Source: Clostridia bacterium
GTDB lineage: Bacteria; Bacillota; Clostridia; Lachnospirales; Lachnospiraceae
Assembly (NCBI GenBank): GCA_910574255.1
Contig: CAJTAK010000003.1
Coordinates: 269,501-333,500, forward strand
Reading direction: 5' to 3'
Length of the DNA: 64,000 nucleotides
Shown: piece by piece, positions 43,449-63,933 of the stretch
Layout of the letters: each line of letters begins with the position of its first letter
How positions within the stretch are numbered: the stretch's first letter is position 1
The notes under the pieces: model-generated
Told to the model about the DNA's origin: nothing
The model's database searches: none
Seen by the model: the letters and a program-made list of their open reading frames with translations, nothing else
Program-made: the position numbers and the translations under genes

Positions 43449-43450
43449 TT

Positions 43451-45152: not shown

Positions 45153-45182
45153 TGGCAATACCTCCTTGTCGTTTGTGACATT

Positions 45183-45242
45183 ATCATAGCACCTTCTCCT
45201 TGAGAGAACCTTGCGGCAAACTTGAATTTACCTTGAGATTGG
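45183..45242 (-). promoter_or_regulatory. response-regulator box and promoter of the LanFEG-like operon
   Basis: Four CTTG words on the plus strand start at 45199, 45210, 45221 and 45232, exactly 11 bp apart (consensus CTTGAnnnnAC). Read on the minus strand the last repeat ends 10 nt before TATGAT (45188-45183), placing the box over the -35. Tandem 11-bp repeats are the usual binding pattern of OmpR/LanR-type regulators. A second promoter for the plus-strand regulator gene may use TATAAT at 45276-45281. Confidence 0.75.
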
Positions 45243-45314
45243 AACGCTGTCCTATGCAGGATATGAAAAAAGAGGTATAATACACCCAGTCGGAACTGTT
45301 GGGAGGTGTGCTGC

Positions 45315-46001
45315 GTGAAAGACAAACCGATTCTTGTTGTGGACGATGAGCTTGATCTGCTGGCTATGGTCCGATCGATTTTTGAGCGGGCGGGATTTAC
45401 ACAGATCATAACCGCTTCCTCCGGGGAAGCGGCTTTGGATGAATTTTTTAAGAAAAAGCCTGCAATGGCAATTCTGGATGTGATGATGCCGGACATGGAC
45501 GGGTTTGAGTTGCTGCGGGAAATCCGTCAGATCAGCGGGATTCCCGTCCTGATGCTGACCGCTAAAGGAGAAGCCGAGGACAGGTGCCGAGGACTGGAAC
45601 TGGGGGCAGACGATTATCTGGTCAAGCCTTTTCTGCCCAAGGAGCTTCTTCTGCGGGTCAACGCAATTTTGAAACGGGCATATCCCGACGGCAATCGGAC
45701 GGTAATTCTTGCTGCATCCACAGTGGATTTAGACCGTGCGGAGGTCCGCCGGGGCGAAACGGTTTTCTCTCTGACCGGAAAGGAGTACGCAATTTTTCTG
45801 AAGCTGGCGGAGAATGCCGGGCGTGTCGTCACCATTGGCGCTCTATGTCAGGCCGTCTGCGGAGAAATCTGGACAGGATATGAAAATACGCTCATGTCCC
45901 ATATCCGTCACTTGCGGGAGAAGATCGAAGATACTCCATCAGTGCCAGTCTCTCTCCTGACCATCAAGGGCCTGGGCTACAAACTCGTGGTAAAGGGGTG
46001 A
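45315..46001 (+). CDS. OmpR-family response regulator (CprR/LanR-like)
   Basis: A 228-residue regulator: receiver with acidic pair D10-D11, phosphorylation site Asp55 (ILDVMMPDMDG) and KP motif near 105; winged-helix output domain in the last 100 residues. GTG 45315 has GGGAGGTG 7 nt upstream. Divergent from the LanFEG-like operon and flanked by its box, so it very likely activates it. Confidence 0.85.
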   Translation: MKDKPILVVDDELDLLAMVRSIFERAGFTQIITASSGEAALDEFFKKKPAMAILDVMMPDMDGFELLREIRQISGIPVLMLTAKGEAEDRCRGLELGADDYLVKPFLPKELLLRVNAILKRAYPDGNRTVILAASTVDLDRAEVRRGETVFSLTGKEYAIFLKLAENAGRVVTIGALCQAVCGEIWTGYENTLMSHIRHLREKIEDTPSVPVSLLTIKGLGYKLVVKG

Positions 46002-46006
46002 TCATT

Positions 46007-47371
46007 TTGAATCCGATACAAAGGTTTTTCCGGAAATATTTCCTTTCTACAATCGCAGCTCTGGCGCTGTTCCTGTTGATGAACCTTGCGCTTGCGGTCG
46101 CAATCCGGGTGATTGCTGACTGCCGTACTTCTGCCCCCGACTTGTCGGTATCTGCTCTCTCCGCTATGGTGTCAGAGGTGAGTGGTGTGATTGAGGCGGA
46201 ACCGGATTTGTCCCGCATACTGTCCAAAAACCACGCCTGGGCCATGCTGTTGAGCGACGATGGCGCGGTTATCTGGGAAGAACAGATGCCGAATGATCTG
46301 CCCCGCTCTTATACAGCCGCTCAGATTGCCCAATTCAGCAGATGGTACTTGCAGGAATATCCAGTATTTGTCTGGCAACATCCAGCCGGACTGTTTGTAT
46401 TGGCCTATCCCGTAAATAGTCTGCAACGATACAACTTTGCTATGGAAACCGGCGATGTTTGGGCTATGGTCATCACAGTGTTTGGCATATTTCTTGTCAG
46501 TATCTTACTGATGCTGTTTTTACTGTGGCGCAACACGCGCAGGGTAGAACAGGCGGTAAAGCCCATTCTGACAGGTATCATCGCAATGTCCCAGGGTAAG
46601 CCGGTTCAATTAGAGGAACACGGCGAGCTTACGGACATCAATGCGGAATTGAACTGGGCCAGTGAACAGCTCCACAAAAAAGACACGGCCCGCGCCGATT
46701 GGATCAGTGGAATTTCCCACGATATACGCACCCCGTTGTCGGTCATGCTGGGCTACGCCGGGGAAATCGAGGACAACGACGCACTTCCGTCTGATGTTCA
46801 GAAACAGGCTGGTTTAATTCGTAAACATGGGGAAAAGCTGCGGCAGTTAATTATTGACTTGAATCTTGTGTCAAGACTGGAATATGCTATGCAGCCATTG
46901 CAAAAAACCTCTGTCAGTCCGGTTGAGTTATCCAGGCAAGTCATCAGTGATTATATGAATAACGATCTGGACGAGCAGTATGTGATTGACCTTTATGCAG
47001 GGGATGGTGCTGAATCAATTCTAATTGAGGGTGACAACACTTTGCTTACCCGTATGCTGGAAAACTTAATTGGTAATAGCATTGCCCACAATCCGGATGG
47101 ATGTCATATTTGTGTTTCGGTTGAATTGACTGACAGAATGTGTAAACTTATGGTTCAGGACTCTGGCAAAGGCATGGACGAGACTGCTTTACGGATGTTA
47201 AACGCAGCAGAGTGTGTTAGCTTCACACAAAGCAATGGTAGCGGGATTCCTCATGGAAACGGCTTGAAAATCGCAAGACAGATTGTTTCTGCCCACAAGG
47301 GAACGATCAAATTTTTCGAAACAGAACCTCATGGGGTAACTGTTGTTGTGAAGCTTCCAACAATGAAGTAG
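46007..47371 (+). CDS. sensor histidine kinase (CprK/LanK-like)
   Basis: A 454-residue kinase with two membrane helices (about 12-35 and 150-175) around an extracellular sensor of about 110 residues, HAMP-like linker, H-box ISHDIRTPLS, N-box region and GNGLKIARQ at the end. The TTG at 46007 is preferred because AAAGGGG lies 8 nt upstream; a GTG three codons earlier overlaps that site. Forms the sensing pair with the regulator just upstream. Confidence 0.83.
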   Translation: MNPIQRFFRKYFLSTIAALALFLLMNLALAVAIRVIADCRTSAPDLSVSALSAMVSEVSGVIEAEPDLSRILSKNHAWAMLLSDDGAVIWEEQMPNDLPRSYTAAQIAQFSRWYLQEYPVFVWQHPAGLFVLAYPVNSLQRYNFAMETGDVWAMVITVFGIFLVSILLMLFLLWRNTRRVEQAVKPILTGIIAMSQGKPVQLEEHGELTDINAELNWASEQLHKKDTARADWISGISHDIRTPLSVMLGYAGEIEDNDALPSDVQKQAGLIRKHGEKLRQLIIDLNLVSRLEYAMQPLQKTSVSPVELSRQVISDYMNNDLDEQYVIDLYAGDGAESILIEGDNTLLTRMLENLIGNSIAHNPDGCHICVSVELTDRMCKLMVQDSGKGMDETALRMLNAAECVSFTQSNGSGIPHGNGLKIARQIVSAHKGTIKFFETEPHGVTVVVKLPTMK

Positions 47372-47401
47372 GGCGGCAGAGGAGCAAGAATCTTCTCTAG
47401 T

Positions 47402-47427
47402 GGGTATGGAGATTACTCCCCATACCC
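47402..47427. terminator. hairpin between convergent operons
   Basis: GGGTATGG pairs with CCATACCC around AGATTACTCC. It lies between the kinase gene's end and the end of the opposing permease gene; no T-run, so only a likely terminator. Confidence 0.5.
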
Positions 47428-47478
47428 CTAATCAAAACCGTGCGTGCTATTTAACATATAAGACTTTTCACCTTACAT

Positions 47479-49806
47479 TCATTGCTCATTGATAGTTTCA
47501 GTAATTGCCATATTGCGTATACGCTTTGCCGGAGTATAAATTGATATAATACAAGAAAAAACAACCAGTAAAAGTACAAGGGCAATAGTAGTAAAGGGAA
47601 TATTCCATGAGCCGCCAAAATGGGTAATAACAACCTTTGTGTAAATCAGATAGTGAAGCAGCAGTCCAAGTATAATTCCGACAGTCGTACCGCAGACAGC
47701 GTATGTGGCTGCTTCAGCAGTTATCATTTTTGTAACCTGTCTGCTTCCCATACCAACAGCACGCATAGCCCCATACTGTTTAATTCTTGCTGACACACCC
47801 ATTGAAACACTGTTCATAATGTTCAAAATGGTTATTAAGGAAATGATAGCAAGGAAACTGTATGCCGCAATTCGGAACACCCAGTAGGAACCATTGATCT
47901 CATCATCTTCCTCTCTGTTGTCTGCAATTACATTTCCTTCTGACAGTCCATAAATTTTGTTTACCGCTGCATCAGATACATCTTTTTCTAATACAATGCC
48001 TACCATAGCATAGCCTTGTTCGCCTATCAGACGTGTGCAGGTTTCTTCCGAACATACCACAACGGTCGAACCGCTGATGCTTCCCACACCCTCAGACATA
48101 ACACACGCAACTTCAAGTTCTTCGGAACCTATTTTTATTTTATCTCCCACATCCAGTCCTGTATGGTTACTGTAGACTGCCATGACATATTGAGAATTTC
48201 CATACACTTTTGCTATATTTCCGCTTACAACGGATTTCCTGAAGTTGTCCATCATGGTATCTCCATAGGAAAATAAATCAACCGTTGACATATTCCCGTT
48301 AATTTCTGCGGGATAGCTCATGCTATACATCATGCCAAAAACAGACTCTACCCCCGATATTCCGGAAATTTCTTCTGATATGCTTTTATCTATGGAATTA
48401 GACTCATCCTGACTGGTAACCGTAATGTCCGGAGTTAAATCACTCACTGATGGAAGCAGCCTGTGAACAATATCAAGACAAGCGGAAAAAGTCAAAAAAA
48501 GCATAATTGTAAGGGCAAAGGAGCCTGTCATAAGGACTAAGTTTTTCTTAACTCCTGTTGCATGGTGGACACCAAGGGAAGTTTCCACTTTGAAAAGCCT
48601 TGTATTTGCCGCATGGACGATTTTTTTGTTTGTTTCTGCGTTGCCGGATATTGCTGCTATGGGCGAAACTTTTGCTGCCTGTTTAGCCGGGGATTGTGCT
48701 GCAATAAACACGGTAATGATACCTATGGCTACCCCACAGAGGATACCACTTATACTTACTGAAAATAGTGGCATATCTACCCATTCGCCTTTTACGATAA
48801 ATTTTAGTATCAGACACGATACCCAACAAATTACCGTTCCTAACGCACAACCAATAGGAATTGCTGTTTTACACCAATTCAGTGCTTCAAGCCTTACAAA
48901 ACGTACAATCTGTTGTTTACTTGCACCAATGCAACGCATCATTCCGAAAAATTTTGTCCGTTGGGCAACATTACTGTTCATGCAGCTTGAAATCATAAAG
49001 ATTCCTGCAATTAGTATAATGACAAAACAAGCTATCACCAAAGGGTAGAGTTCATTTACGCTTTCATTGCTGCTCGCCCCTAACAGGCTCAAAACGGGCG
49101 TGTTTTCACTAATATTTTCAGAAGTGAGCGAATATTGCTCTTTTATACTGGCAATCGTTTTTTTCAAACCGTTCTCACTTTGAAACCGAATATAAAATTG
49201 AGATGTAGGTTCTATGCCATTCAAATTTCTCACTTCATCAAACGCAGCTTTGCACATATACATACAGGTTCCGTCAATAATGTCGTTAAATTCCTCATCA
49301 TCTTCATAAAATCCTGATATTGTATAAGTAAAATCGCCTGCGAGCGTATTAAGAGTAATATCATCGCCTATCTGGACTTTGAAAAGCTCCTTTGCGTCTG
49401 CACTAATGGCAATTTCCTTTTCATTTTGTGGGTAGGAGCCTTCCAACGGATAATTCATCATATCTGTGACGTAGGCTTCTTCGACGCCATACAGCACAAC
49501 ATTTTTTCCGTTGATATAATAGTTGCAATCTGCATTTTCATTTATTACATCATACCATGAGGAGTATGCCACATCAGAATTATCTATAATCTGTTCGGCT
49601 TTATCCTCTGGCATATTTTGAAGAACAATATGCCAATCTCCGTGATTACTCCGCATTGCTGTTATCTGTCCGTTTGTCCACATCTCCAGCAAAGAAAAGA
49701 TTGCAGTTACAAGGAATACAGCAAGAATAATGCAAATGCGTGTCATGCGGCTTTGCCGCCTGTGAACCTTTGCGGAAATCGGGATAAGGCTTAAATAGCT
49801 TTTCAT
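47479..49806 (-). CDS. FtsX-type ABC permease (transporter 2)
   Basis: A 775-residue permease with two FtsX/MacB-like halves: N-terminal helix (about 23-43), an extracellular domain to about 255, three helices with MRCIGASKQQI, a second extracellular domain (about 445-640), and three C-terminal helices with MRAVGMGSRQV. It works with the ATPase encoded just upstream. The ATG overlaps the ATPase stop in ATGA. Likely expels or detaches antimicrobial peptides. Confidence 0.85.
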   Translation of the reverse strand: MKSYLSLIPISAKVHRRQSRMTRICIILAVFLVTAIFSLLEMWTNGQITAMRSNHGDWHIVLQNMPEDKAEQIIDNSDVAYSSWYDVINENADCNYYINGKNVVLYGVEEAYVTDMMNYPLEGSYPQNEKEIAISADAKELFKVQIGDDITLNTLAGDFTYTISGFYEDDEEFNDIIDGTCMYMCKAAFDEVRNLNGIEPTSQFYIRFQSENGLKKTIASIKEQYSLTSENISENTPVLSLLGASSNESVNELYPLVIACFVIILIAGIFMISSCMNSNVAQRTKFFGMMRCIGASKQQIVRFVRLEALNWCKTAIPIGCALGTVICWVSCLILKFIVKGEWVDMPLFSVSISGILCGVAIGIITVFIAAQSPAKQAAKVSPIAAISGNAETNKKIVHAANTRLFKVETSLGVHHATGVKKNLVLMTGSFALTIMLFLTFSACLDIVHRLLPSVSDLTPDITVTSQDESNSIDKSISEEISGISGVESVFGMMYSMSYPAEINGNMSTVDLFSYGDTMMDNFRKSVVSGNIAKVYGNSQYVMAVYSNHTGLDVGDKIKIGSEELEVACVMSEGVGSISGSTVVVCSEETCTRLIGEQGYAMVGIVLEKDVSDAAVNKIYGLSEGNVIADNREEDDEINGSYWVFRIAAYSFLAIISLITILNIMNSVSMGVSARIKQYGAMRAVGMGSRQVTKMITAEAATYAVCGTTVGIILGLLLHYLIYTKVVITHFGGSWNIPFTTIALVLLLVVFSCIISIYTPAKRIRNMAITETINEQ

Positions 49807-50486
49807 TCGCGGCACCTCCCTAAATCGGTCAGCACACCGTCTGATACCTGTAAAATTCGGTCTGCGCTCTGTGCAATGTTCCTATTATGAGTAATCATAA
49901 TAATGGTTTGCTCATACTTCCTTGACGCTTCTTTTAACAGGGCAATGACTTCGCTGCTGTTCTGCGTGTCAAGGTTTCCTGTTGGCTCGTCGGCAAGGAT
50001 TAACGACGGGCGCGTGATAAGGGCGCGTCCGATTGCCACACGCTGCTGCTGTCCGCCAGATAACTGGCTCGGCAAATGGTTACGGCGTTCTTTCAGATTA
50101 AGAACAGTAAGCAGTTCTTCCAGATATTTTTTGTCCGGCTTCTGATAGTCAAGCAGCACCGGGAAAATAATATTTTGCTCAACGGTAAGCTCCGGCACAA
50201 GATTGAACGCCTGAAAAATAAATCCGATATTCCTCCGGCGGAAAACGGTAAGTTTGCGGTCGTTCATGGAAAAAATATCCTTGCCGCCAATCGTTACCTT
50301 TCCAGATGTAGGCGTATCAAGTGCGCCTATCATATTGAGCAGCGTACTTTTTCCGGAGCCGGATTCTCCAACGATAGCCACATACTCGCCTTTTGGAACG
50401 GAAAAGCTCACTTTTTTCAAAGCGTGTACGGCAGTTTCGCCGCTTCCATATGTTTTACAGATATTGTTGACTTCCAATAAGTTCAT
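49803..50486 (-). CDS. MacB/BceA-type ABC ATPase (transporter 2)
   Basis: A 227-residue ATPase with Walker [10 protein letters not shown] (about 40-48), Q-loop [13 protein letters not shown], signature [11 protein letters not shown], Walker [13 protein letters not shown]. This LolD/MacB-type subclass partners FtsX-like permeases. A response-regulator box lies directly upstream. Confidence 0.9.
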
Positions 50487-50518
50487 GTGTAAACACCTCT
50501 TTCTGTTTTGATAGCCCC

Positions 50519-50562
50519 ACTATAACAGAAAAATCCTACACCAATATTACAATCAGCCTACA
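50519..50562 (-). promoter_or_regulatory. response-regulator box and promoter of transporter 2
   Basis: On the minus strand three TGTA words (TGTAGG, TGTAAT, TGTAGG; from 50562, 50551 and 50540) repeat every 11 bp. The last ends 10 nt before TATAGT (50524-50519). The first overlaps the stop of the upstream kinase gene, so the transporter has its own regulated promoter inside the operon. Confidence 0.72.
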
Positions 50563-51604
50563 ATTTTGTAGGAATCAGGAAATTCATTGTGAAAGAGGTT
50601 CCGCTGCCTAATGTACTGTCTGCTTCAATCGTTCCATTATGGGCTTCCACAATCGCATTTGCTAATGACAGTCCAAGCCCGATACCCTGCGTGTCTTTAG
50701 AAAAACGGCTGCGGTAAAACCGCTTGAAAATATGGTGCAAGTCCTCCGGGTGTATGCCGCTGCCGTTATCCTTTACGGTAATCTGAACAATAGAAGTGAA
50801 CGCCCGCCACTCAATACGGATCATACCGCCATTTTCAGTGTGGTCAAGGGCGTTCTTTACAAGGTTGCTGATTGCTTCGATTATCCAGTTGCGGTCACAT
50901 AAAAGTGAGATTTCTTCATTGCCTGATAAGCAGATTTCTTTTCCCTCCTGTTCGGCACGAAACAGGAAATGCTTTTTTACATTCTCTGCAAGCTCGGACA
51001 CATTTTCTAATGACTTTTCTAACACAATCGTACCCGCGTCCAGCTTCGTAATTTTCAAAAGGCTCTGTACCAGGGTTTCGATACGGTCAAGCTCCTGCTC
51101 GGAAAGCTGGCTAAATTCCTGTATTGTCGGAAGTTCCTGTTCTTTTGCTTCGCCCTGTATAATGCCATTGTAAATATTGAGGGCGGCAAGCGGTGTCTTT
51201 AGCTGATGTGAAATATCCGATATGGTACCTCGTAAAAATTTTTTTGAACTTTTTTCATTCTCGGCATGAGCGTTCAGGATTGCAACCAAAGAATTAACTT
51301 CATGGAACAGCCTGTATAGCTCGCCCTCGTCGTTACACTCAATGGTAATGTCTTTGTTGCCGGAAATATATTCTGTAATCTGCGATATGGCATTTTCCAT
51401 GATTTTATGCTGTTCCCTAAAATACCCGTAACAAAGCAGCAATATGACAGATCCCATACATACGCCGCAGATTATGACGTAATATGCCGCATTTCTACCC
51501 GCAAAAGCCGCTAATAATACTGAAAGTAACGTAAAAAACACGATAGAGAAAACCATACTGGCAAAAAGGATTTTGATTTTTCTGTTTGCAAATATTTTCA
51601 TCAT
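50558..51604 (-). CDS. intramembrane-sensing histidine kinase (set 2)
   Basis: A 348-residue kinase with two closely spaced membrane helices (about 11-35 and 38-60) and almost no extracellular loop, as in BceS-type kinases that sense through their transporter. H-box SDISHQLKTPLAAL, then N- and G-boxes (NLVKNALDHT, GIGLGLSLA). The start overlaps the regulator stop in ATGATG. Confidence 0.83.
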   Translation of the reverse strand: MMKIFANRKIKILFASMVFSIVFFTLLSVLLAAFAGRNAAYYVIICGVCMGSVILLLCYGYFREQHKIMENAISQITEYISGNKDITIECNDEGELYRLFHEVNSLVAILNAHAENEKSSKKFLRGTISDISHQLKTPLAALNIYNGIIQGEAKEQELPTIQEFSQLSEQELDRIETLVQSLLKITKLDAGTIVLEKSLENVSELAENVKKHFLFRAEQEGKEICLSGNEEISLLCDRNWIIEAISNLVKNALDHTENGGMIRIEWRAFTSIVQITVKDNGSGIHPEDLHHIFKRFYRSRFSKDTQGIGLGLSLANAIVEAHNGTIEADSTLGSGTSFTMNFLIPTKL

Positions 51605-52296
51605 ATCCCCGGTTCCTCCGTATTCCATTTGTAGCCCATACCGCGAACAGTAACAATCCTTTTGGGTTCTCCCGGATTGTCCTCAATTTTTGTACGAAGC
51701 CTGCGGATATAAACAGTAAGAGAATTATTGTCTATATAATTTTCGCTGCAATCCCATAGTTTTCCTAAAATCTGTTCCGGGGAAAGTATCTGGTCGGGGT
51801 TTTCCATGAACAGGCATAACAATTTATATTCACTCGCCGTCAAATCAAGCAGTTTCCCCCGTTTATAAACCTCTCCTTTTAGAAGTCTTATGCTTATATC
51901 GTTGGAGTTCAGTTCTGTAACAGCGGTATTGAAATTCTCGCTCCTGCGGAGCAATGCGTTAATCCTTGACATAAATATTGCCAGCTTGAAAGGCTTTGTA
52001 ATATAATCATCGCCCCCAATATCAAGCCCCATAATAATATCTGTTTCTTCATCAGCAGCAGTAAGAAATATGACAGGCACTTTTGAAGTCAGGCGTATCT
52101 TTCTGCAAAAATCAAAGCCGGAACCATCGGGAAGCGATACATCCAGAATGACTAAATCATATTTATCATTTACCCATAACGTATCAGCTTCCAGTGTGGT
52201 ACGGGCAACGTCTATTTCATATCCCTCTTTTTTTACGGCAAAAGACAGACCGCTGATTAAACTTAAATCATCTTCCAATAAAAATAATCGTTTCAT
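51601..52296 (-). CDS. OmpR-family response regulator (set 2)
   Basis: A 231-residue regulator with acidic pair near residues 9-10, Asp52 (VILDVSLPDGSG) and a winged-helix output domain. It lies 18 bp after the lipoprotein gene and probably reads from the upstream operon; its target is very likely the TGTA box before transporter 2. Confidence 0.85.
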   Translation of the reverse strand: MKRLFLLEDDLSLISGLSFAVKKEGYEIDVARTTLEADTLWVNDKYDLVILDVSLPDGSGFDFCRKIRLTSKVPVIFLTAADEETDIIMGLDIGGDDYITKPFKLAIFMSRINALLRRSENFNTAVTELNSNDISIRLLKGEVYKRGKLLDLTASEYKLLCLFMENPDQILSPEQILGKLWDCSENYIDNNSLTVYIRRLRTKIEDNPGEPKRIVTVRGMGYKWNTEEPGI

Positions 52297-52314
52297 TTGC
52301 TGTGTCTCTTTCCC

Positions 52315-53187: not shown

Positions 53188-53282
53188 AAAAACTCCTCCG
53201 TTCGTTTTATTCTATCTTAAAAAGTAAATAGACTGACATTCGGAAACCGGAGGCAACCTGCCTCCGGCTTCCAGACGAGCAT

Positions 53283-55853
53283 TCAGTTTTGATGCAGCCG
53301 CTCGATGATACTGACCTTTGCAATCTGCCGGTACATAAGCGCCGGTATTGCAGCCGTTAAAAGGAGCAGGAACGGATAGACCGCCAGCATGGGCCACATG
53401 ACAAATTGGTAGGTGAAAAACCAAATCCCACTGGAAATGCCCCTTACGATTACCACCGAGAACAAAGCCCCCAGGACGGCGGATGTGATGATTGTTCCCG
53501 CCGCATAGTACAGCCCCTCAAAGGAGAGCATACGCTTTAACTGCTTTCCGGTCATGCCAATGCTTTGCAGCATGGCAAATTCCTTTTTGCGGGTGATGAC
53601 ACTGGTCAGAATGGAGTTGACAAAGTTTGTAATCCCAATGATCCCGATGATGATGCTCAACGCCCCGCCGATGGTGATAATCAGGGAGGTCAGGCCCTCA
53701 AAGGAGCTGACATAGGTCGATTTGGACTCAAAGTCCATACTGGGTTCCACGCTGTCGATATAGCTTTTCAAAAACTCCTCCATAGCTGGTTCTGTCCCCG
53801 GCTTCACGTTGAAGGGGAAGTTGACCAGGTGCGGCTGGTCGCAGAGGGGCAGATAAATTTCCGTAGGGAGATAGAGTCTTGAAGCGCCGGTATTGCGGGT
53901 AGTAGTGGTGTTTTCGTTTTTTCGGACCTTTGCCATAATGGTAAATTCATAGCTCTCCCCAATGGTATCGGAGAGGCCGTCCTTTCGGATATGGTTCAGC
54001 TGGATGGTATCTCCAACATGGATATTCGGATTGTCGATCACCGTTCCATCATCTGTACATTCCACGCTCAACAGGATATACTTGCCTGTTTTCAGCTGTT
54101 CCAGGTCGATGGTTCCCTCTACCGCCTCCATCGTGTTCAGAACAAAATCATCTGCGCCGTATATGTCCACAAAAGGATTTCCGTTCTCGTCTTTATTGTA
54201 GTTTGTAAATGCGGCGTGGTCGGTAGAAAAGTTTTCTTCCAAAAGGCGGGAGGTATAGAGCCTGCCGCCGTCGTCAAAGTTTTCATTCTGCCGGACGGCC
54301 TGGATAAAGCTCTCCGTCAGATCGCCTTCGCTCTTTTCAAACTGGTACTGGAAATAGTCCGCAGTGGAAATCACAAAGTCAACATTCAAAAATTTCTCGA
54401 TATACTTGTCAATATCAAATCCACCGGACAGGGTAAATACCGTATTGAACAGAACAATGCTTAATGTCATGGACACGATGACCAGCACGGTTCGTTTGCG
54501 GTTGCGGCCCAGGTTAGCCAGAGCCATGAAGTGGAGCTTCGCGCCGTGGGTGGACTTCTTGTCCGTGACCTTGCGGCTTCCGAATGCTGCCGCGTCGTTT
54601 TCCGTGTAGCGGATGGCCTCAATGGCCGAAACCGTTCCGGCGATTTTGGCCGGCTTGCGGACGCTGATAAAAACGGTCAGCAGGGCAAAGGCGGCGGAGC
54701 CAATGAAGATCAGCGGATTGACCGTCACACTAATCCCGGCGTCGGCAGTATAGGTTGTGCCATTCATCAGGAACGGCACCAGGGCACGCCCAATCACAAA
54801 GCCAATCAGTAGTCCAATGGGGATGCTGACAGCACAGAGCCTGATGGCCTGCCGGTTAATCAGCCGCTGGATCTGGCGTTGTGTTGTACCCAGGGTCTTG
54901 AGCTGCCCATAGGATTGAATATCCTGAATGACGGAAATCTGAAAAATGTTGTAGATAATCAGATAGCCCGTTATGATAATCAGCAGAACGCCCACGATGC
55001 CGGAAATCAGCATGGCAGGGTTTTCTGATAATGCGCCGCTCTGGTAAGCGGGACTGATGCCCGCAATGATATAACTGCTGTCCCCCGGACTGCCGCCCAT
55101 AGTGTCGCAGGTATAGCCAGCTTCGGAAAGAAGCTGATGCAGACGGCTTTCCACATCGCCTCTGCCCTGAAACATGATGTAGGCGGTCACAACACCGGAA
55201 TAGTCGTTGTCCACGGGGTAGGTATAGGTCAGAATGTCTGAATGAGCGTCAAGAAAGGCTTTTGATATGATCAGCCGCCCGATGTTGCTCAAACTGTCGG
55301 TTTCCCAAAAGCCACAGAGAGTAAAATCTGTGGTATACACAATGCCCTTGACCTCATAGGTCAGCGAAACCGTTTCCCCAACCTGTGCCGGAACGCCCAG
55401 AGCCTCCAGCGTTTTTGTGTCTGCGATAATCTCATTTTCCGCGACCGGCCGACGGCCTGTTGTGGGGGTATAGCGGGCAAACTCCAGGGCGGTATCATCC
55501 ATATACCACAGGTCAGACCGCCAGCGTTCCAGGCCCGGATTTTTCAGCCGGTAGGAAACTGCCTTTGCATAAGCGATGCGTTCGATCAGGGGACTGCCCG
55601 CCACATTGTTGTAAACCTCGTCGCTGATATAGGTCAGAGCCGCCTGACCATCGCCGCCTGCCTTGCGGATGTTCTGGTCGTGAACCGTGTCCAGCAGGCC
55701 GGAACCCAGGGTGAAAATCGTGGTAAACAGGATCGTCGTCAGAATGATTGCGATAACCGCAATGATGTTCCGGCTTTTGCTGGCCTTGTAGTAGCGGCCG
55801 GACAGTCTTTTCATGACTGCGCCGTTGTTGTTTCCGAATAAAATATCGTTCAT
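53283..55853 (-). CDS. FtsX-type ABC permease (transporter 3)
   Basis: An 856-residue permease with two FtsX halves, each a helix bundle with an extracellular domain (residues about 50-270 and 510-700); motifs [14 protein letters not shown] and [15 protein letters not shown] 55853 follows GGAGG. It pairs with the ATPase just upstream and with a lipoprotein downstream. Confidence 0.85.
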
Positions 55854-55866
55854 GTCTGCGCCCTCC

Positions 55867-56532
55867 TTACTGGGAAATCCTGCCGTCCTCGATGCGGATA
55901 ATGCGGTCGGCAAGCTGGGCGATCTCGTTGTTGTGGGTAATCATCACCAATGTCTGGCGGAACTTGCTGCTGGTGACTTTCAGAAGCCCCATCACATCGG
56001 CGCTGGTCCGGCTGTCCAGATTGCCGGTTGGCTCGTCCGCCAGGACGATGGCAGGCTTGGAGACCAGGGCGCGGGCGATGGCCACACGCTGCTGCTGCCC
56101 GCCGGAAAGATTATTCGGCATACTGTTCAGTTTATTCTCCAGAGCCAGCAGGCGCACCACCTCGTCCATGAACTTCTGATCGACCGTATCGCCGTCCAGC
56201 TCCACGGGCAGGACGATGTTTTCATAGACGTTCAGAACGGGGACAAGGTTGTAATTCTGGAAGATAAAGCCAATGTTGCGGCGGCGGAAAATGGTGAGCT
56301 GTTCATCCTTCAGGCCGGCCAGCTCTTTGTCTTTCACCTTGACGCTGCCGGAAGTAGGCACATCCAGCCCGCCCATCATGTTCAGCAGTGTGGACTTGCC
56401 GCTGCCGGAGGTCCCCACGATGGCGGCAAACTCCCCCTGTTCAATGGAGAGAGTCACGCCGTCCAGCGCCTTTGTAACATTCGGCTCTGTGCCGTAGTGT
56501 TTTTTTAGATCGGTTGTTTGCAAAATGCTCAT
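55867..56532 (-). CDS. MacB/BceA-type ABC ATPase (transporter 3)
   Basis: A 221-residue ATPase: Walker [11 protein letters not shown]-loop [12 protein letters not shown], signature [12 protein letters not shown], Walker [15 protein letters not shown] 56532 is chosen for the AAAGGATGG site upstream; an in-frame start four codons earlier is less well placed. Its promoter carries a two-repeat box like that of the third regulator operon. Confidence 0.9.
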
Positions 56533-56562
56533 GATAAACACCATCCTTTCTGTGATGCCGTT

Positions 56563-56595
56563 ATCCTAACAGCCAATCCTCACAGAAATGTCACA
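56563..56595 (-). promoter_or_regulatory. response-regulator box and promoter of transporter 3
   Basis: Minus strand: TGTGAC (56595-56590) and TGTGAG (56584-56579), 11 bp apart, then 10 nt, then TAGGAT (56568-56563) as -10. The box matches those at 58.7 kb and 63.9 kb. Confidence 0.7.
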
Positions 56596-56612
56596 GATGG
56601 CTGGGTTTTTCG

Positions 56613-56646
56613 CCTTGAAATGTTACAATACTGTAATAGTTCAAGG
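56613..56646. repeat. imperfect 15-bp inverted repeat
   Basis: CCTTGAAATGTTACA and TGTAATAGTTCAAGG (two mismatches) around a 4-nt loop, between the CPBP gene's end and the transporter 3 promoter. It could be a terminator for the former or a second binding site. Confidence 0.5.
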
Positions 56647-56664
56647 CAGCCGTTTGATTGAGGG

Positions 56665-57510: not shown

Positions 57511-57573
57511 CAAATAGCCCCCTTGGTTTGAATTTTGAACATGTAGATTGATCACTCAACAAACTGGAATTTA

Positions 57574-58128
57574 TCATTGCGAATGTTCAGCCAAATATTT
57601 CAGAAATTCTTCTGTTTTTGACCAGTACAAAATCCCCCAATTTTCAAAATTCCATTCTTCCATATAATCGTTACATTCAAAATCAATATAATATATCAAT
57701 CTGTTCTGCACCACAAAATTTGTGGGAAAATAATCAATGTTGGTGTTTGCGGGATAGAGCAGACTGCACATATCTTTTATCTGTTCTATGTATTCGTTTT
57801 TCATACAATCAGATTTTACAAGTTCATATATGGTTCTGCCCTCGATATATTCTTTCAAAATCCTTTCATTCACTATATCAACATCTATCATTTCGGGGAT
57901 TCTGATACCAATTTTTTTCAGTCTATTATAATCATTTATCTCTGCCTGAATCTTATTGCCAAACTGATAATAACTGCATGGCTCGTGATGTATCTGCTTT
58001 AAAACATACTGTTGCTCTCCATCGCTTGCTAAATAAGAATAACCGCCTTTACCTTTTCCCAAAAGCCCAATAATCTTATATTCTTTTCCATTTACGAGTA
58101 ATGTGTTAGGCATATTTACGTCAACCAT
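57574..58128 (-). CDS. small kinase-like protein
   Basis: A 184-residue protein resembling a shortened protein-kinase/phosphotransferase fold: glycine-rich LLGKGKGGYSYLA near 20-32, a lysine in QYVLKQI, and NFVVQNRLIYYIDFECNDY near 145 as the catalytic-loop/metal-binding area, where His/Asp of the HxD motif is not evident. So it may be inactive or bind only. GGAGG precedes the ATG. It sits with cargo genes of unknown role. Confidence 0.55.
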   Translation of the reverse strand: MVDVNMPNTLLVNGKEYKIIGLLGKGKGGYSYLASDGEQQYVLKQIHHEPCSYYQFGNKIQAEINDYNRLKKIGIRIPEMIDVDIVNERILKEYIEGRTIYELVKSDCMKNEYIEQIKDMCSLLYPANTNIDYFPTNFVVQNRLIYYIDFECNDYMEEWNFENWGILYWSKTEEFLKYLAEHSQ

Positions 58129-58150
58129 TTCTATACCTCCAAATTCCAGT

Positions 58151-58681
58151 TTACCGTTTCCATTTATCCAGCTTATACCCCTTCTGCTCCAATCTGGCCC
58201 GGAAAGCCTCCAAAAAGTCCAGGAACCGTTCCTTTTCTTCCGGCTGATGGATGTTCTTGGGGCCATACATGGTTTTGCTGCTGGTGCCGCCAATGTCCAG
58301 CAGTTCCCCAAAACTGCCGTAGTCCTTTCTGTACTCCAGACAGGCTTTGGTGATCTTAGGGTCATAAGACACATTGACAATACTGTCCATATCGAGGAAC
58401 ACCGCCTCCGAGTGGTTCTCCAGCGCACTGTCCACCTGGATCAGCACAATGCAAAAATCACTTCGCCGGTAGCCCATAACATAGAAACAGAACGTGGTAG
58501 TATTAGTATCAAAGACAAATCCTTCCTCAAATTTGGAAGAATACATACAGGCGTAGAGAACTTCGTAGCTGTCGCCATCCTTCACAGTTTCGTTAAAAAT
58601 CTCCCGCAGCCGTTTTTTCTTCGCCGCGCAGTCTGCCGGATCGTACTCCGGCGCTTTCGGTTTTCTGGAAAACAGTCCCAT
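58151..58681 (-). CDS. unrecognised 176-residue protein
   Basis: A soluble protein with a basic N-terminus (MGLFSRKPKAPEYD) and a helical region FLDFLEAFRARLEQKGYKLDKW at the end. AGGAGG precedes the ATG. Its promoter carries the third-regulator box, so it is likely to be induced together with transporter 3. Confidence 0.5.
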   Translation of the reverse strand: MGLFSRKPKAPEYDPADCAAKKKRLREIFNETVKDGDSYEVLYACMYSSKFEEGFVFDTNTTTFCFYVMGYRRSDFCIVLIQVDSALENHSEAVFLDMDSIVNVSYDPKITKACLEYRKDYGSFGELLDIGGTSSKTMYGPKNIHQPEEKERFLDFLEAFRARLEQKGYKLDKWKR

Positions 58682-58720
58682 GATTGGTTCCTCCTAATCT
58701 AAATTATTTACAAGGCTAAT

Positions 58721-58753
58721 ATTGTAACAGGCAATTGTCACAGAAATGTTACA
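58721..58753 (-). promoter_or_regulatory. response-regulator box before the 58.7-kb gene
   Basis: Minus strand: TGTAAC (58753-58748) and TGTGAC (58742-58737), 11 bp apart, then 10 nt, then TACAAT (58726-58721) as -10. Flanking sequence is also similar to the transporter 3 promoter. TTGTAACA/TGTTACAA also form an inverted repeat here. Confidence 0.68.
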
Positions 58754-58773
58754 AGCGGCTGGATTTTGAAACT

Positions 58774-58918
58774 TTATCTGCGGGGCAGAAATATGGAAAC
58801 CATAGAGCCTTGTCCCAGCGAAGAAGTGGCCTTGATGTAGACACCCTGCATGGTGACGGTCTCACGGGCCAGGTGCAGTCCGATGTCGATGCCGCCCTCC
58901 GGCGTGTACTTTGCGGCG
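58774..58918 (-). pseudogene. histidine kinase C-terminal relic
   Basis: The minus strand encodes AAKYTPEGGIDIGLHLAR-type sequence followed by ETVTMQGVYIKATSSLG and ending SIFLPRR. This equals the end of the kinase at 62.2-63.2 kb but lacks in frame about 50 residues between YTPEGG and IGLYLVRE. No start is present. It is immediately followed by a regulator box, as an intact kinase-box-transporter cassette would be. Confidence 0.72.
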
Positions 58919-58935
58919 CTTGATAGCAGGCACAG

Positions 58936-59433
58936 CTATATGTACTCATGGAGCCAATCAATTCCTGGATAAAACGCCCCTGTCCGAATAAAATATTCAA
59001 CTGCCTTGATACCCGTTTCAATATCGGTAAGCGCATGAATTTTGGCAATCGGCGACTGACCTCCGCTTTTAAGATCTGTATATATACTTTTGTCTGAAAA
59101 ATCCATTTTGCTGACCTGGCCGGCAGTATCCACAAATGCAGGATTATAAGAAAAATAAGTGTTTTCTCCCAAATCGCCCCAAAACCAGATTGCGATCCAT
59201 TTGCCGTCACAGTTTACTTCAAGCCAATTATCCTCTCCGCATGGGTCTAAGAATAAATAAATATTGATTCCACTGGGAATTTTCTTTAAGACCTCCGCTA
59301 TCACCTGTTCTGTGATTTTTTCTCCATGATATTCCTGATAGGGCGGGTCAAAATATTCAATGTGCTGAACCTTGATTGCTTGAGAGTCAAACGGCGGAAT
59401 ATATGCTTGCTTTGGAATCATCTGCGATTTCAT
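58936..59433 (-). CDS. unrecognised protein, possible immunity protein
   Basis: A 165-residue soluble protein with no clear motif; the central beta-rich stretch (INIYLFLDPCGEDNWLEVN, WIAIWFWGDL) and size recall Imm1-like immunity proteins, which I cannot confirm. AAAGGAG precedes the ATG. Its end abuts the kinase relic, so it arrived with the rearrangement or was inserted there. Confidence 0.45.
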   Translation of the reverse strand: MKSQMIPKQAYIPPFDSQAIKVQHIEYFDPPYQEYHGEKITEQVIAEVLKKIPSGINIYLFLDPCGEDNWLEVNCDGKWIAIWFWGDLGENTYFSYNPAFVDTAGQVSKMDFSDKSIYTDLKSGGQSPIAKIHALTDIETGIKAVEYFIRTGAFYPGIDWLHEYI

Positions 59434-59541
59434 GATTTTCTCCTTTCATACTTGAACCCCTGTGTTTGTCAGTGTATCTATGGGGGAATATGTAAAGCAT
59501 CACTGCTCTGAGGAAAACATAGCTTTCTGGATATTCTTCTG

Positions 59542-59892
59542 CTAATATGAGCTGTCAAAGTAATTCCCGCTTTTCGGCAGATTCTTGAACATATTCATGA
59601 TCATGTCATATGTCATGGATGAAGTATCAATCTCCAGTTTCTTCCCGTCCTTTAACTTGATTACGGTAACGTTATCACCCACGTAAGCAACCGTATTATC
59701 ATCAAGGTACTGTATCATTCCTGTCATTTCCGCAAATTTTTTCACCGGATATTCTCCCGTCTCCTTGCACATTTCCCAAAATTTTTCAGTATCTTCCCCT
59801 GTCATATATGGCTGTTTGCCGTCTATAACATACCATGAGAGACCCGTTGCCGGATCTGTATATTTTGGTGCTGTCAACGCCCATTCTTCCAA
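59542..59892 (-). pseudogene. 5'-truncated gene fragment
   Basis: An open frame of about 116-138 residues (WALTAPKYTDPATGLSWYV through MIMNMFKNLPKSGNYF) that has no ribosome site; the frame extends upstream to a stop near 59958 without a good start. It looks like the C-terminal end of a larger protein. Function unknown. Confidence 0.5.
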
Positions 59893-60198
59893 TGTCTTGT
59901 CTTTGTACCACGTGGTCAGGCCGCTGTCATTTGATACTGTGCCTTGCTCCTGTTATACTTGTTCGTTGATACATTGTTCTGATAAAAATTCTGCTCTATT
60001 CCATTTACGCTCTTTTTTCAAATCCATTGTTGTCATTTTTTCACGGCTCATCTGTCGTTCCGAACCGTTCCTGCTCCCTCATAATAAGTCCGAGCAATCT
60101 ATTACAAAACGCATTTCCCTACCGCTTCCGCAATCAGGGTGTCCTTCACTTCAATGTCATACCCATGCACTGTGAAATGACTGTTATATTCATTGTTT
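59893..60198 (-). other. patchwork of short reading-frame remnants
   Basis: No complete gene. Three short minus-strand frames end here in succession: one ending TLIAEAVGKCVL, one ending MREQERFGTTDEP and one ending SEQCINEQV. They look like the tails of deleted mobile-element genes, though I cannot name the families. This marks a recombination scar between cargo genes. Confidence 0.4.
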
Positions 60199-61221
60199 TT
60201 ACTTAAATCTATACACTGCTATTACAATACATACATTTATTCCAATCACAAGAATATGCTTTTTCCATGTCAGACTTAAATATCCAACAAATTCCCGGAT
60301 AAAAGCATTCAGTGTAAAATACCATTTTGTTTTAGAACCGAAACCCACACATCTTATTCCCTGCCTCTTTGCCAGTATTAACGCCCTGAACATGTGATAA
60401 GCAGTTGTGACAACTATAATTTGTGGATTCTGTTTATTTATCAGTTTTCTCGAAAACCGTAGGTTTTCCTCCGTGGACACAGATTTCTGTTCCAAAATGA
60501 CTTTTTCCGCACTTACGCCTTTATCAATCGCATAATCTGCCATAGCTTTACTTTCTGGAATATCCTCTCCTGAACCTTGTCCGCCAGACATAATCAGTAC
60601 AGCATTTGGATTATAGCACAGCAATTCTATTCCTTTTTCAATCCGTGCTGCAAGTAACGGCGTAACCCTGCTTCCAATAATTCCTGCCCCCAGTACAATA
60701 ATGTAATCTGCGTTTCTTTTCTTTTTTAAGTGAAGAAGATTGAGCACTGCGGAAAGTGAATACACTGCCAGCACCAACAATATATATACTACTATGAAAC
60801 TAATAATTTTATACAGCATTGTACCTAATGTATTCTTTCCCAAGTTTCCAATTACCGGCCAGACCGCCAGATAAATACATAACAGAACAGAAAACAACAT
60901 TGATAATAGATTTGTCGGTTTTATTCCTTCATGTCTAATAACTCTTACCCCTTCTATAAAGAACACAAGAATCAAAGCCACTGGAAACAAAGCCACACTG
61001 CCTACTGCTAAAACAAACATAACAATCAGTATTCCAATCACTAAAGCATGCGCTGCCAGCCATTCTGAACATTGGTATAAGACAAACAACAAAAATATCG
61101 CCAGACACATCATCATAATCAAAAACGAGGCTCCACTCCATAATGTTCTGGAATCATGAAACATAATTCCTGCGAATATGCAGACTGAAACAAAAAATAC
61201 AAAAAATGCAAACTGCCACAT
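60199..61221 (-). CDS. YdcF/ElyC-like DUF218 membrane protein
   Basis: A 340-residue protein with about six N-terminal membrane helices and a DUF218 domain from residue 175 (DYIIVLGAGI, LLAARIEKGIEL, VLIMSGGQGSGEDIPESKAMADY, EQKSVSTEENLRFS, VVTTAYHMFRALILA). Such proteins act in envelope metabolism. AAGGAG precedes the ATG. Relation to peptide resistance is unknown. Confidence 0.8.
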   Translation of the reverse strand: MWQFAFFVFFVSVCIFAGIMFHDSRTLWSGASFLIMMMCLAIFLLFVLYQCSEWLAAHALVIGILIVMFVLAVGSVALFPVALILVFFIEGVRVIRHEGIKPTNLLSMLFSVLLCIYLAVWPVIGNLGKNTLGTMLYKIISFIVVYILLVLAVYSLSAVLNLLHLKKKRNADYIIVLGAGIIGSRVTPLLAARIEKGIELLCYNPNAVLIMSGGQGSGEDIPESKAMADYAIDKGVSAEKVILEQKSVSTEENLRFSRKLINKQNPQIIVVTTAYHMFRALILAKRQGIRCVGFGSKTKWYFTLNAFIREFVGYLSLTWKKHILVIGINVCIVIAVYRFK

Positions 61222-61313
61222 AATATACTCCTTATGCCATCTTGCAGCCAGACTATCAAGCTGCCTGCAAAATGGCAGAAAATATTTCTAAATAATAACA
61301 TTTCCCATCCTTG

Positions 61314-62135
61314 CTAAGCCATGTCATCTCTAAGTGCATCAATAATATTTTCTTTCCTGATTTTGCTGGTAGCATACAACATTGTAATAAAAACAATACA
61401 AAATACACCTAATATGCTGATTATCATGCTTTGCCACGGAAAACGATACGAAAATCTTTCAAGCTGTTCATTCGTAACCAGCCCTTTATAAATCAGCCAT
61501 GAAAGAATACCTGCAATCGGCACTCCAAACAGAATCGTGCGCAATCCATAAAAGAAACACTCGAAATTCATCATCCGGTTAAAACCATGTTCCGACATTC
61601 CAACCGAACGCAGCATGGCAAGTTCCCGCCTCCTGATGCGGATGTTTGTTGAAATCGTATTAAATACATTTGCAACCGCAATCAATGAAATCATAGCTCC
61701 AAAGGCGTAAATAAACACATCTACAACAAAAGTGATGCTCCGGAACAGATCAACTGCGGAAGATAGATTTATAAGCGTATAATCATAGGCAATCCCCGCA
61801 TCTGTAATTTCAGACTGAATCTGCGCCATTGTCTGCGTAGGCGTATCTGTCCAAAAAGTCAGACCTGATTTAGTAAGTCCCGTTAATCCGTCAAAATCAG
61901 CGTTCATTGACCATGGAATCACCATAAAAAATAAGTATTCCGGTGTAGAATCAAGCGGAAGCGTATCTAACGGATAATTATCCACCACGGTTACACAGAC
62001 TGTTTTTGCCATTCCCCAGTCCAGAAGGTCATTTTCCCCCACATCAGAATAAATGGTAAATTCCATCAAAGCGTTTTCATCGTTGGGAATTATACCACGT
62101 CCAATAAGGAAAACGAGTTTGGATGATATAATCTT
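61314..62135 (-). pseudogene. FtsX permease, C-terminal fragment (transporter 4 relic)
   Basis: The frame is open from a stop at 62138 with no suitable start; it begins inside an extracellular domain (LIGRGIIPNDENALMEF resembles the usual GR-x-P-x-x-x-N-E region) and ends with a complete C-terminal FtsX half (AMLRSVGMSEHGFNR). The N-terminal two-thirds and the ATPase gene are gone. It lies directly behind the third kinase, where a transporter would be expected. Confidence 0.7.
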
Positions 62136-62157
62136 TCACTCTCCCGTTTCCGGAATT

Positions 62158-63183
62158 TTAACCATAGGGAAGGAATATGGAAAATACAGAGCCGTATCCC
62201 ACAGCGGAAGATACCTTGATATAGCCGCCCTGCATGGTGACGATCTCACGAACCAGATACAGCCCGATGCCGATGCCGTCCACATCGTGTACTTCCTCTT
62301 CCCGGTAGAAGCGTTTGAAGATCATGCCCTGTCGGTTTTCCGCAATTCCCTTCCCACTGTCCGCAATGTCGATTTTCACATACAGCTCCCAGCTTTGGAC
62401 GGTGACGCGAATCGTGCCGCCCTCCGGCGTGTACTTTACAGCATTATCCAGAATATTGAACAGGGCCTCGCCGGTCCATTTCCTGTCATGGGCCAGCGCC
62501 AGATCAGGCGGGCAATCCACACTTACATGAATATTTTTCTTTTCGGCGTTAAGCAGGATACCGCCCAGCGCCGCCGCAAGGGTATCATAGAGCGGCTGTA
62601 TTTTTCTGTCCAGAGAAATCACGCCGGTTTCCAGCCGGGAGGTCTTTATCATAGCCTGCATAAGAAAATCCAGCTTATCAAGCTGTCCGCTGGATGCCTG
62701 TAAAAACTCCCGCTGTTTTTCCTCCGGCACGGACTGTTCAAGCAACGTGGCGTTTACCATCTGGAGGTTGGCAATCGGCGTTTTCACCTGATGGGATATG
62801 TCGGAAATCAGTTCCTGCAAATCAGCCCGGTCCTTCGCCACACGCTCCCGATTCTCCCGCATGACTTCATACAGACGCAGCAGCCGATGATTGATTTTGT
62901 AAAACAGATTTTCTTCCTCATGAATTTGCGGCGGTGGGGCCGCCCCATCCAGCATATCATCCATCGTCCGGCAAAGGCTGTCCGAAAATAATACCAGCTT
63001 GCGGCGGAGAAACGCCACAAAAACAGCAACGCAGGCAAAAACCAGAATGGTAAACAGCAGGCCCAGCCAGACAAGAATCAGGTTCCCGGTAAGCAGATAC
63101 ACCGTAGCAAGGGCAGCCAGCGAAATGCCACATAAAAAGGCAGTCCCTATGGCACAGGCCCGGTTGACAGAAAGCCCTTTCAC
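62158..63183 (-). CDS. intramembrane-sensing histidine kinase (set 3)
   Basis: A 341-residue kinase with two close membrane helices (about 7-28 and 33-55), H-box SDISHQVKTPIANL, N-box NILDNAVKYTPEGG and G-box GIGIGLYLVRE. GTG overlaps the regulator stop, and GGAGG lies 8-9 nt upstream. Its own transporter is truncated next door; the box evidence points to transporter 3 as its target. Confidence 0.84.
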   Translation of the reverse strand: MKGLSVNRACAIGTAFLCGISLAALATVYLLTGNLILVWLGLLFTILVFACVAVFVAFLRRKLVLFSDSLCRTMDDMLDGAAPPPQIHEEENLFYKINHRLLRLYEVMRENRERVAKDRADLQELISDISHQVKTPIANLQMVNATLLEQSVPEEKQREFLQASSGQLDKLDFLMQAMIKTSRLETGVISLDRKIQPLYDTLAAALGGILLNAEKKNIHVSVDCPPDLALAHDRKWTGEALFNILDNAVKYTPEGGTIRVTVQSWELYVKIDIADSGKGIAENRQGMIFKRFYREEEVHDVDGIGIGLYLVREIVTMQGGYIKVSSAVGYGSVFSIFLPYG

Positions 63184-63863
63184 TTTTTCAGCCCTCCAAT
63201 CCACATATAGCCCATGCCGTAAACTGTTTTGATATATTGCAGGCCGTCCACTTCAATTTTACCCCGGATGCGGCTGATCGTAACCGTCAGAGTGTGTTCA
63301 TCCACAAAATTTTCGTCCGCATCCCACAGCTTTTCAAGAAGCATCTGACGGGTCAAAACGATTTTGGGATTTCTCACCAGCACTTTCAGCAGTCTATATT
63401 CTAGCGGCGTAAACGTAATTGACTCCCCGGACAGTTCTGCGGTCAGCTCCGAGAAATTGATGGACAGCGTACCGTCCGCATAGCAGTCGCCGCCTGTCTG
63501 CTTTTGGATGCGGCCAAGCAGAGCCGATATCTTTTTACGGAATACACTGATGGGAAAGGGTTTTGTTACATAATCATCCGCGCCCAGCTCAAACCCTTTC
63601 AGCATATCGCTTTCCATGTCATTTGCCGTCAGAAAAATCACAGCAGTATCAGGGCGGCGCTCCTTGATCTGTTCGCAGAAATCAAACCCGTTTCCATCCG
63701 GCAGGTTCACATCCAGCACAATCAGGTCATAGTCCTGCGCTTCAAAGAAACGAACCGCCTCCGCACTTGTCACAGCGGAATCTACAGTATAGCCGGACGC
63801 AGAAAGATTGTAGCACAGTGTATTGTTCAAAAGCCGGTCATCCTCCACCACTAAGAGCCGCAT
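63180..63863 (-). CDS. OmpR-family response regulator (set 3)
   Basis: A 227-residue regulator with acidic pair near 8-9, Asp51 (IVLDVNLPDGNG), KP motif near 100 and a winged-helix output domain. Its promoter holds a TGTGAG/CGTAAC box with the same 11-bp and 10-nt spacings as those before transporter 3 and the 58.7-kb gene, so it probably controls all three units. Confidence 0.86.
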   Translation of the reverse strand: MRLLVVEDDRLLNNTLCYNLSASGYTVDSAVTSAEAVRFFEAQDYDLIVLDVNLPDGNGFDFCEQIKERRPDTAVIFLTANDMESDMLKGFELGADDYVTKPFPISVFRKKISALLGRIQKQTGGDCYADGTLSINFSELTAELSGESITFTPLEYRLLKVLVRNPKIVLTRQMLLEKLWDADENFVDEHTLTVTISRIRGKIEVDGLQYIKTVYGMGYMWIGGLKK

Positions 63864-63900
63864 ACGTTCACATCCTTCCAGTTCTATTCTTCTATCATGG

Positions 63901-63933
63901 ATAGTATCATTGAAATGTTACGAAAATCTCACA
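63901..63933 (-). promoter_or_regulatory. autoregulatory box of response regulator set 3
   Basis: Minus strand: TGTGAG (63933-63928) and CGTAAC (63922-63917), 11 bp apart, then 10 nt, then TACTAT (63906-63901) as -10, ending about 40 nt before the start codon. Confidence 0.65.

Follow-up and report, generated by a model that had tools for sequence, protein, structure and literature searches.

When three similar peptide-resistance modules lie side by side on a chromosome, which regulator drives which pump? The question is raised by a stretch of 64,000 nucleotides (nt; the window, hereafter) from a Clostridia bacterium of the Lachnospiraceae (assembly GCA_910574255.1, contig CAJTAK010000003.1, positions 269,501 to 333,500, forward strand; source genome of 5.04 Mb in 78 contigs). 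The right third of the window, from 42.7 to 63.9 kb, holds three two-component systems and their ATP-binding cassette (ABC) transporters. An original prediction, made from the letters alone, had placed direct repeats with an 11-base-pair (bp) period in five promoters, the last repeat ending exactly 10 nt before the -10 hexamer, with a different word for each system, and had given the third regulator three targets. It is highly probable, in our view, that each two-component system controls its own antimicrobial-peptide resistance transporter, and that regulator 3 also controls its own operon and a gene that we call g58, via operators resembling the pho box.

All five promoters (45.2, 50.5, 56.6, 58.7 and 63.9 kb) carry such repeats, on the minus strand. 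Ahead of the LanFEG-like transporter (45183..45236) stand TCAAG (45236-45232), TCAAG (45225-45221), GCAAG (45214-45210, one mismatch) and TCAAG (45203-45199), then 10 nt and an extended -10 element, TGC-TATGAT (TATGAT 45188-45183). The promoter of BceAB-like transporter 2 (50519..50572) has TGTAGG (50562-50557), TGTAAT (50551-50546), TGTAGG (50540-50535), 10 nt and TGT-TATAGT (TATAGT 50524-50519), while that of BceAB-like transporter 3 (56563..56637) has TGTGAC (56595-56590), TGTGAG (56584-56579), 10 nt and TGT-TAGGAT (TAGGAT 56568-56563). The two remaining promoters are those of g58 (58721..58753; TGTAAC 58753-58748, TGTGAC 58742-58737, 10 nt, TGT-TACAAT with TACAAT at 58726-58721) and of regulator 3 itself (63901..63933; TGTGAG 63933-63928, CGTAAC 63922-63917, 10 nt, TGA-TACTAT with TACTAT at 63906-63901). 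The exact spacing holds for all five in a common register of six letters (CTCAAG-N10-TATGAT, TGTAGG-N10-TATAGT, TGTGAG-N10-TAGGAT, TGTGAC-N10-TACAAT and CGTAAC-N10-TACTAT, every hexamer being TANNNT); with the five-letter word TGTAG it does not, as TATAGT is then 11 nt away. The extended -10, with TG at spacer positions 8-9 (TGn before the hexamer) in all five promoters, had gone unmentioned. None of the five has a good -35, the best candidates matching TTGACA at no more than two of six positions at a spacing of 16-18 nt.

Does this layout mean anything? Written with the actual words, it has 3, 1 and 1 sites in the window, against none in 60 simulated windows for each word. These words came from the window itself, however, so that conservation among relatives is the better test. 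For regulator 3 we took the best 80 of 153 relatives' loci (75-100% identity), found in Lachnospiraceae, Oscillospiraceae, other Clostridia or unclassified bacteria. For each of the other two we took 30 loci, from 39 (regulator 2) and 37 (regulator 1) matches listed in 200 family genomes each, own genome included. We discarded promoters shorter than 110 nt and those with 90% identity or more to one already kept; each set contains the window's own copy. The sets are named LanF (the LanFEG-like ATPase), A2 and A3 (the ATPases of transporters 2 and 3), RR3 (regulator 3) and g58.

The spacing is kept. All 27 distinct promoters of the LanF family (28 before thinning) have TANNNT at +49, counted from the first of their four half-sites, and in the A2 family it stands at +38 in 23 of 24 (24 before thinning), the exception, L147, being anchored on a weak repeat; the anchored count is preferred for A2 because a loose half-site pattern peaks there also at 21, one step earlier, and at 7. 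The regulator-3 family provided 63 A3, 80 RR3 and 7 g58 promoters, reduced to 42, 64 and 4. When TANNNT was counted 0-30 nt after an 11-bp pair, without favouring an offset of 10, that offset had 33 cases among the A3 promoters and another offset 1; RR3 had 34 there and at most 3 at any other offset, and g58 had 4, besides single cases at 18 and at 30. With a looser rule for pairs and a milder thinning, offset 10 was found in 38/56 A3, 58/61 RR3 and 5/5 g58 promoters, 10 more RR3 promoters having no pair. A scan that chose the best box returned 42 of 42 A3 promoters, a figure that is not independent, since its scoring gave TANNNT a bonus. The TG of the extended -10, which played no role in picking sites, is found in 48 of 52 RR3, 27 of 42 A3, 3 of 4 g58 and 22 of 24 A2 promoters. 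Finally, a strict regulator-3 box has 124 matches in 849,616 bases of regulator-3 loci and none in the reversed sequence: 50 lie before regulator 3, 52 before A3, 7 before g58 and 15 elsewhere.

Because the layout is general for the OmpR/PhoB family, by itself it ties no promoter to a regulator. The words do better, and here the idea of one repeat word per system is borne out: the three patterns, none of which matches the reversed controls, fall almost on the diagonal of the three sets of loci. The regulator-3 word has 116 matches in 72 of 80 regulator-3 loci and is absent from the 30 + 30 others; the regulator-2 pattern is found in 21 of 30 regulator-2 loci and nowhere else; that of regulator 1 in 26 of 30 regulator-1 loci, in none of the 30 regulator-2 loci and in one of the 80 regulator-3 loci, L088, which has a regulator-1 module of its own. 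As the patterns were written after viewing these promoters, the diagonal is a description rather than a blind test. Two loci read by eye separate the regulator from the transporter as the determinant of the word: in L039, where the neighbour is of the regulator-3 type, a LanF-like gene has a TGTAAC/GCGGAC box, and in L055 a LanF gene beside another regulator has four copies of TGCAAG at the same spacing. The comparison of promoters thus suggests that the regulator dictates the half-site word: TCAAG goes with regulator 1 (TGTAAG in more distant kin), TGTAGG with regulator 2 and TGTRAC/TGTGAG with regulator 3.

In most of the regulator-1 relatives (L162-L191), the word is TCAAG where the recognition helix reads HIRHLR and TGTAAG where it is HIRRIR-like; L190 has HIRHLR with another word. 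This covariation is confounded by descent, and was set aside as a lead only.

The assignment of transporter 3, the 58.7-kb gene and regulator 3 itself to regulator 3 fits the gene order of relatives, where boxes precede these very genes. The kinase is present in 79 regulator-3 loci; in 62 of these the ATPase gene A3 follows downstream, and in 48 the distance between the two is no more than 250 nt. As for g58 (58151..58681, minus strand, 176 residues), which has no Pfam or NCBIfam match at 0.001, its start lies 102-109 nt behind kinase 3 in L055, L077 and L084 and 929 nt behind it in L056 (93% identity), where g57, CPBP, A3 and B3 then follow as in the window; all seven loci that have g58 have the box before it (5 distinct promoters). 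In the window kinase 3 and g58 are separated by a DUF218 gene, g59 and two fragments: a truncated FtsX permease (61314-62069) and, just before the g58 box, what is left of the 3' end of a gene like kinase 3 (58783..58911, minus strand, 67.6% identical to kinase 3 residues 310-346). Both fragments look like leftovers of a second module within the regulator-3 locus.

The BceAB-like promoters contain a further element that had escaped the original prediction, an inverted repeat with a four-nt centre. In system 2 it is CCTACA-N4-TGTAGG (50572-50557), overlapping the 50.5-kb box, and it is fused with the direct repeats in the window and in the A2 family alike. In system 3 it is ATTACA-N4-TGTAAC (56637-56622), upstream of the 56.6-kb box. 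Among the A3 promoters, GTCACA-N4-TGTGAC (at least 10 of 12 matches) lies upstream in 30 of 42, its right arm starting 31-33 bp before the start of the direct repeat in 22 promoters and 42 bp before it in 8, two classes that differ by one helical turn; the window's own promoter belongs with the first, at 32 bp. Other promoters of the regulator-3 family had this inverted repeat in 1 of 51 (RR3) and 0 of 4 (g58) cases. Half-site endings differ as well: A3 promoters have C in the distal and G in the proximal half-site in 38 of 42, and RR3 promoters show the reverse order in 40 of 52.

The sites, their spacing and conservation, and the gene order point to a mechanism. A pho box takes the place of the -35 and lies 10 nt above the -10. 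Here, a phosphorylated regulator of the OmpR/PhoB type would bind head-to-tail, with one DNA turn of 11 bp from each half-site to the next. If transcription starts 7 nt below the hexamer, the two half-sites nearest the core cover roughly -39 to -34 and -28 to -23, where a -35 would stand. As they lie there, 10 nt above an extended -10, and as a good -35 is lacking, we infer that the regulator recruits RNA polymerase as a pho-box activator does. At the BceAB-like promoters the inverted repeat would probably be the first, high-affinity site, fused to the others in system 2 and one linker upstream in system 3, so that cooperative loading might start on this main site and reach the promoter-proximal direct repeat second; which half-site is the strong one is conjectural. 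Regulator 3 would drive its own operon and g58 as well.

The genome as a whole tells a more mixed story. It contains 78 regulator-3 matches, and seven paralogous transporter modules were examined. The regulator-3 word without the -10 is unselective (13 matches genome-wide, 9 for the backwards-read pattern) and was dropped as a search rule; one match of the word, on C4 (L008), falls inside a paralogous module, with its ATPase gene on one side and its permease gene on the other. The layout, for its part, is visible by eye in four of the seven fetched modules (three promoters of L039, and L042, L044 and L045). A box at every paralogous module of this genome was looked for, but none was seen in the promoters examined of the other three, and the strict regulator-3 pattern has no match in L039-L045 or L047. 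The closest parallel is L039 (C7:90500-100500), a regulator-3-type module with three boxes, before the transporter, the LanF-like gene and the regulator, in which one half-site reads TCGGAC or GCGGAC; its regulator, 54% identical to regulator 3, sits beside a related word, and cross-talk with it may occur.

How well does this reading stand up? Were the 11-bp repeats and the 10-nt spacing a chance pattern chosen by eye, one would expect what the window shows for the bare layout: repeats matching at 5/6 positions or more at 11 bp, followed by N10 and TANNNT, number 9 where a Markov model gives a mean of 6.95 (sd 2.33), which is chance level and led us to drop the generic layout as evidence. The scarcely enriched bare word in the genome goes the same way. 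Yet word and spacing are kept across dozens of diverged promoters, without a match in reversed controls, and in four of the five sets of promoters the extended -10 holds to one register; chance is already contradicted by the anchored spacing counts of LanF and A2 and by the strict-box control, and we give it next to no credence. Other observations do join the chance-level count in weighing against the proposed control. The box is missing from 13 of 64 distinct RR3 promoters (12 of 64 when the scan reached further upstream) and the inverted repeat from 12 of 42 A3 promoters; the LanF family has the extended -10 TG in just 5 of 27; no box was seen in the promoters examined of L040, L041 and L043 in the same genome; one box of L039 precedes TTATCT instead of TANNNT; and relatives are non-independent samples, some loci being copies of the window's own (L052 and L054, 100%).

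A different doubt concerns the sign of control, as half-sites overlapping the usual -35 position could let the regulators keep RNA polymerase off for as long as they stay bound. An activator that replaces the -35 needs just what is found here, a fixed helical spacing, an extended -10 and the lack of a good -35, and the related regulators PsdR/ApsR, NisR, GraR and CprR activate their targets, as far as the available parts of the literature go, so that repression seems very improbable. What deserves more attention, while still unlikely, is that the 56.6- and 58.7-kb boxes are read by another regulator-3-like protein, such as the paralog on C7, or by both, or that they are relics of a lost module, g58 being no longer under regulator 3. 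The kinase-3-like remnant just upstream of the g58 box means that this promoter probably once followed another kinase copy, and three promoters of the C7 module carry similar words, TGTRAC paired with TCGGAC or GCGGAC. But one half-site of the C7 words is different, regulator 3 itself is intact and lies closest, and in L055 (96%) and L056 (93%) the regulator-3 gene, a g58 copy and the box share one locus, g58 lying 102 and 929 nt behind the kinase. Control by regulator 3 is the reading that we retain for both boxes.

The gene content of the three modules, as seen with Pfam, is as follows. System 1 combines a LanFEG/CprABC-like ABC transporter (42672..45158, minus strand), with its ATPase (44229-45158) adjacent to two ABC2_membrane_4 permeases, as in immunity transporters of the CprABC/NisFEG type, and, divergent from it on the plus strand, regulator 1 and kinase 1 (45306..47371; regulator 45306-46001, kinase 45998-47371). 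The best match of the ATPase is TIGR03740, the lantibiotic protection ATPase model, but at 239.7 bits it remains below the cut-off of 309.75, and for this reason the transporter is named LanFEG-like only. All else is on the minus strand: BceAB-like transporter 2 (47479..50486; ATPase 49803-50486, FtsX/MacB_PCD permease 47479-49815), regulator 2 and kinase 2 (50558..52296; regulator 51601-52296, kinase 50558-51628), BceAB-like transporter 3 (53283..56544; ATPase 55867-56544, FtsX permease 53283-55913), and regulator 3 and kinase 3 (62158..63863; regulator 63180-63863, kinase 62158-63204). The three regulators all have receiver and winged-helix (Trans_reg_C) domains. Relatives of systems 2 and 3 keep together the set of regulator, kinase, ATPase and FtsX-type permease; system 3 is split up in the window, regulator 3 and kinase 3 (62.2-63.9 kb) being 5.6 kb upstream of transporter 3 (53.3-56.5 kb). 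Between permease 3 and regulator 2, a protein of 290 residues (52315-53187) matches TIGR01654, a bacteriocin-associated membrane protein, at 69.8 bits, under the cut-off of 189.35.

The space between kinase 3 and the transporter is a slot of varied small proteins (L056, L057, L067, L079, L083, L097; in the window 58151-59433, g58 and g59), some of which resemble polymorphic-toxin immunity proteins. Seven of the 15 boxes found elsewhere precede a gene of 262-268 codons lying between kinase 3 and A3 (L057, L058, L060, L070, L079, L083, L105), and the L057 copy, the sole one scanned, matches SUKH-1. Others in the slot, not all with a box of their own, code for Imm-NTF2 (L079), DUF4303 and ankyrin (L097) and GNAT (L057) proteins, while g59 and several more, like g58, match no family. 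The regulator-3 operator might be a portable tag, a direct repeat before inserted genes recruiting toxin-immunity-like genes (g58, SUKH-like) to a peptide-sensing regulon, while the phased inverted and direct repeats of A3, with half-site types opposite to the RR3 order, would set different thresholds for sensing and for defence; we offer this as a speculation that could well prove wrong. Permeases also vary: beside a conserved ATPase (80-96%), those of L056-L131 are 69-92% (35 of 59 pairs) or 24-35% (24 of 59) identical to the window's, with none between, and in L044 (own genome, C25) the ATPase is 92% and the permease 45% identical. Judging from these identities, it looks like the permease has been exchanged repeatedly behind one sensor set. 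The 6,818 nt of window 57183-64000 are 100% identical in L052 and L054, two contigs under other names, which suggests a recent transfer, or else one species under several names.

How does this compare with known systems? The layout is the established one for the OmpR/PhoB family, and the modules are BceRS-BceAB-like and NisRK/CprABC-like. In the available parts of the papers cited here, the pho box and other OmpR-family operators are made of two 11-nt direct repeat units (7 well conserved nt and 4 less so), bound head-to-tail (PMC4415409, PMC6222199), PhoB demands strict spacing to the core promoter elements (PMC10294691), and a C. difficile regulator site is taken as an 11-nt direct repeat (PMC6222199). 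The present operators are like the pho box of PhoB/PhoP in their head-to-tail 11-nt repeats and strict core spacing; they differ in words and signal, in being tied to peptide-resistance transporters, and in having an inverted repeat in systems 2 and 3.

That inverted repeat agrees with the binding of BceR, VirR and GraR to inverted repeats, as described in the accessible portion of PMC3128592. The one upstream of vraFG, AAGTGACA-N4-TGTCATTT, has a 4-nt centre, as has GTCACA-N4-TGTGAC here, and the GraR motif ACAAAWKTGT may be compared with ACAAAATTGT within the system-2 inverted repeat (PMC3128592, PMC10858260, both in part). The available text of the GraR paper states that there were no significant direct repeats, whereas here a conserved direct repeat at a fixed distance from the -10 joins the inverted one (PMC3128592). 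GraXSR is, in what was accessible, described as free of autoregulation, unlike regulator 3, which has a box on its own promoter. In work from 2017, Fang and colleagues reportedly distinguished a main site, a linker and a secondary site in the B. subtilis promoters PbceA and PpsdA (BceR/PsdR).

As for system 1, the accessible part of PMC9958725 makes the -35 of NisR promoters part of a TCT-N8-TCT repeat, and the likeness to NisR and to CprRK-CprABC of C. difficile extends to a repeat of 11-bp period that stands before a -10, where the -35 would be, and to a LanFEG/CprABC-type transporter of three genes (PMC9958725, PMC5786555, PMC10601699, in part). The word differs from that of NisR, being TCAAG in four copies; and where C. 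difficile cprR is, in the text available, unlinked to cprK, regulator 1 and kinase 1 are adjacent here and divergent from the transporter. The spa-box of SpaR is presumably a further likeness, going by paper titles alone. The parts seen of PMC3023708, PMC3968067 and PMC9229153 hold nothing on these operators, and the titles and abstract openings searched, a search that most subscription papers lie outside, gave no clostridial description of the combination. What is new, as far as that search reaches, is the phased inverted-plus-direct arrangement in clostridial BceAB-like promoters, together with the members themselves, the assignment of targets and the box before accessory genes. Three similar resistance modules thereby become a testable wiring diagram of regulators and pumps, and g58, so far uncharacterised, would take a predicted place in a peptide-response regulon. 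For Clostridia at large, the word, the 10-nt spacing and TANNNT make a search rule with no matches in the reversed controls of the examined loci, and the 32- or 42-bp linker and the swapped half-site order make concrete predictions on the loading of two sites by BceR-like regulators.

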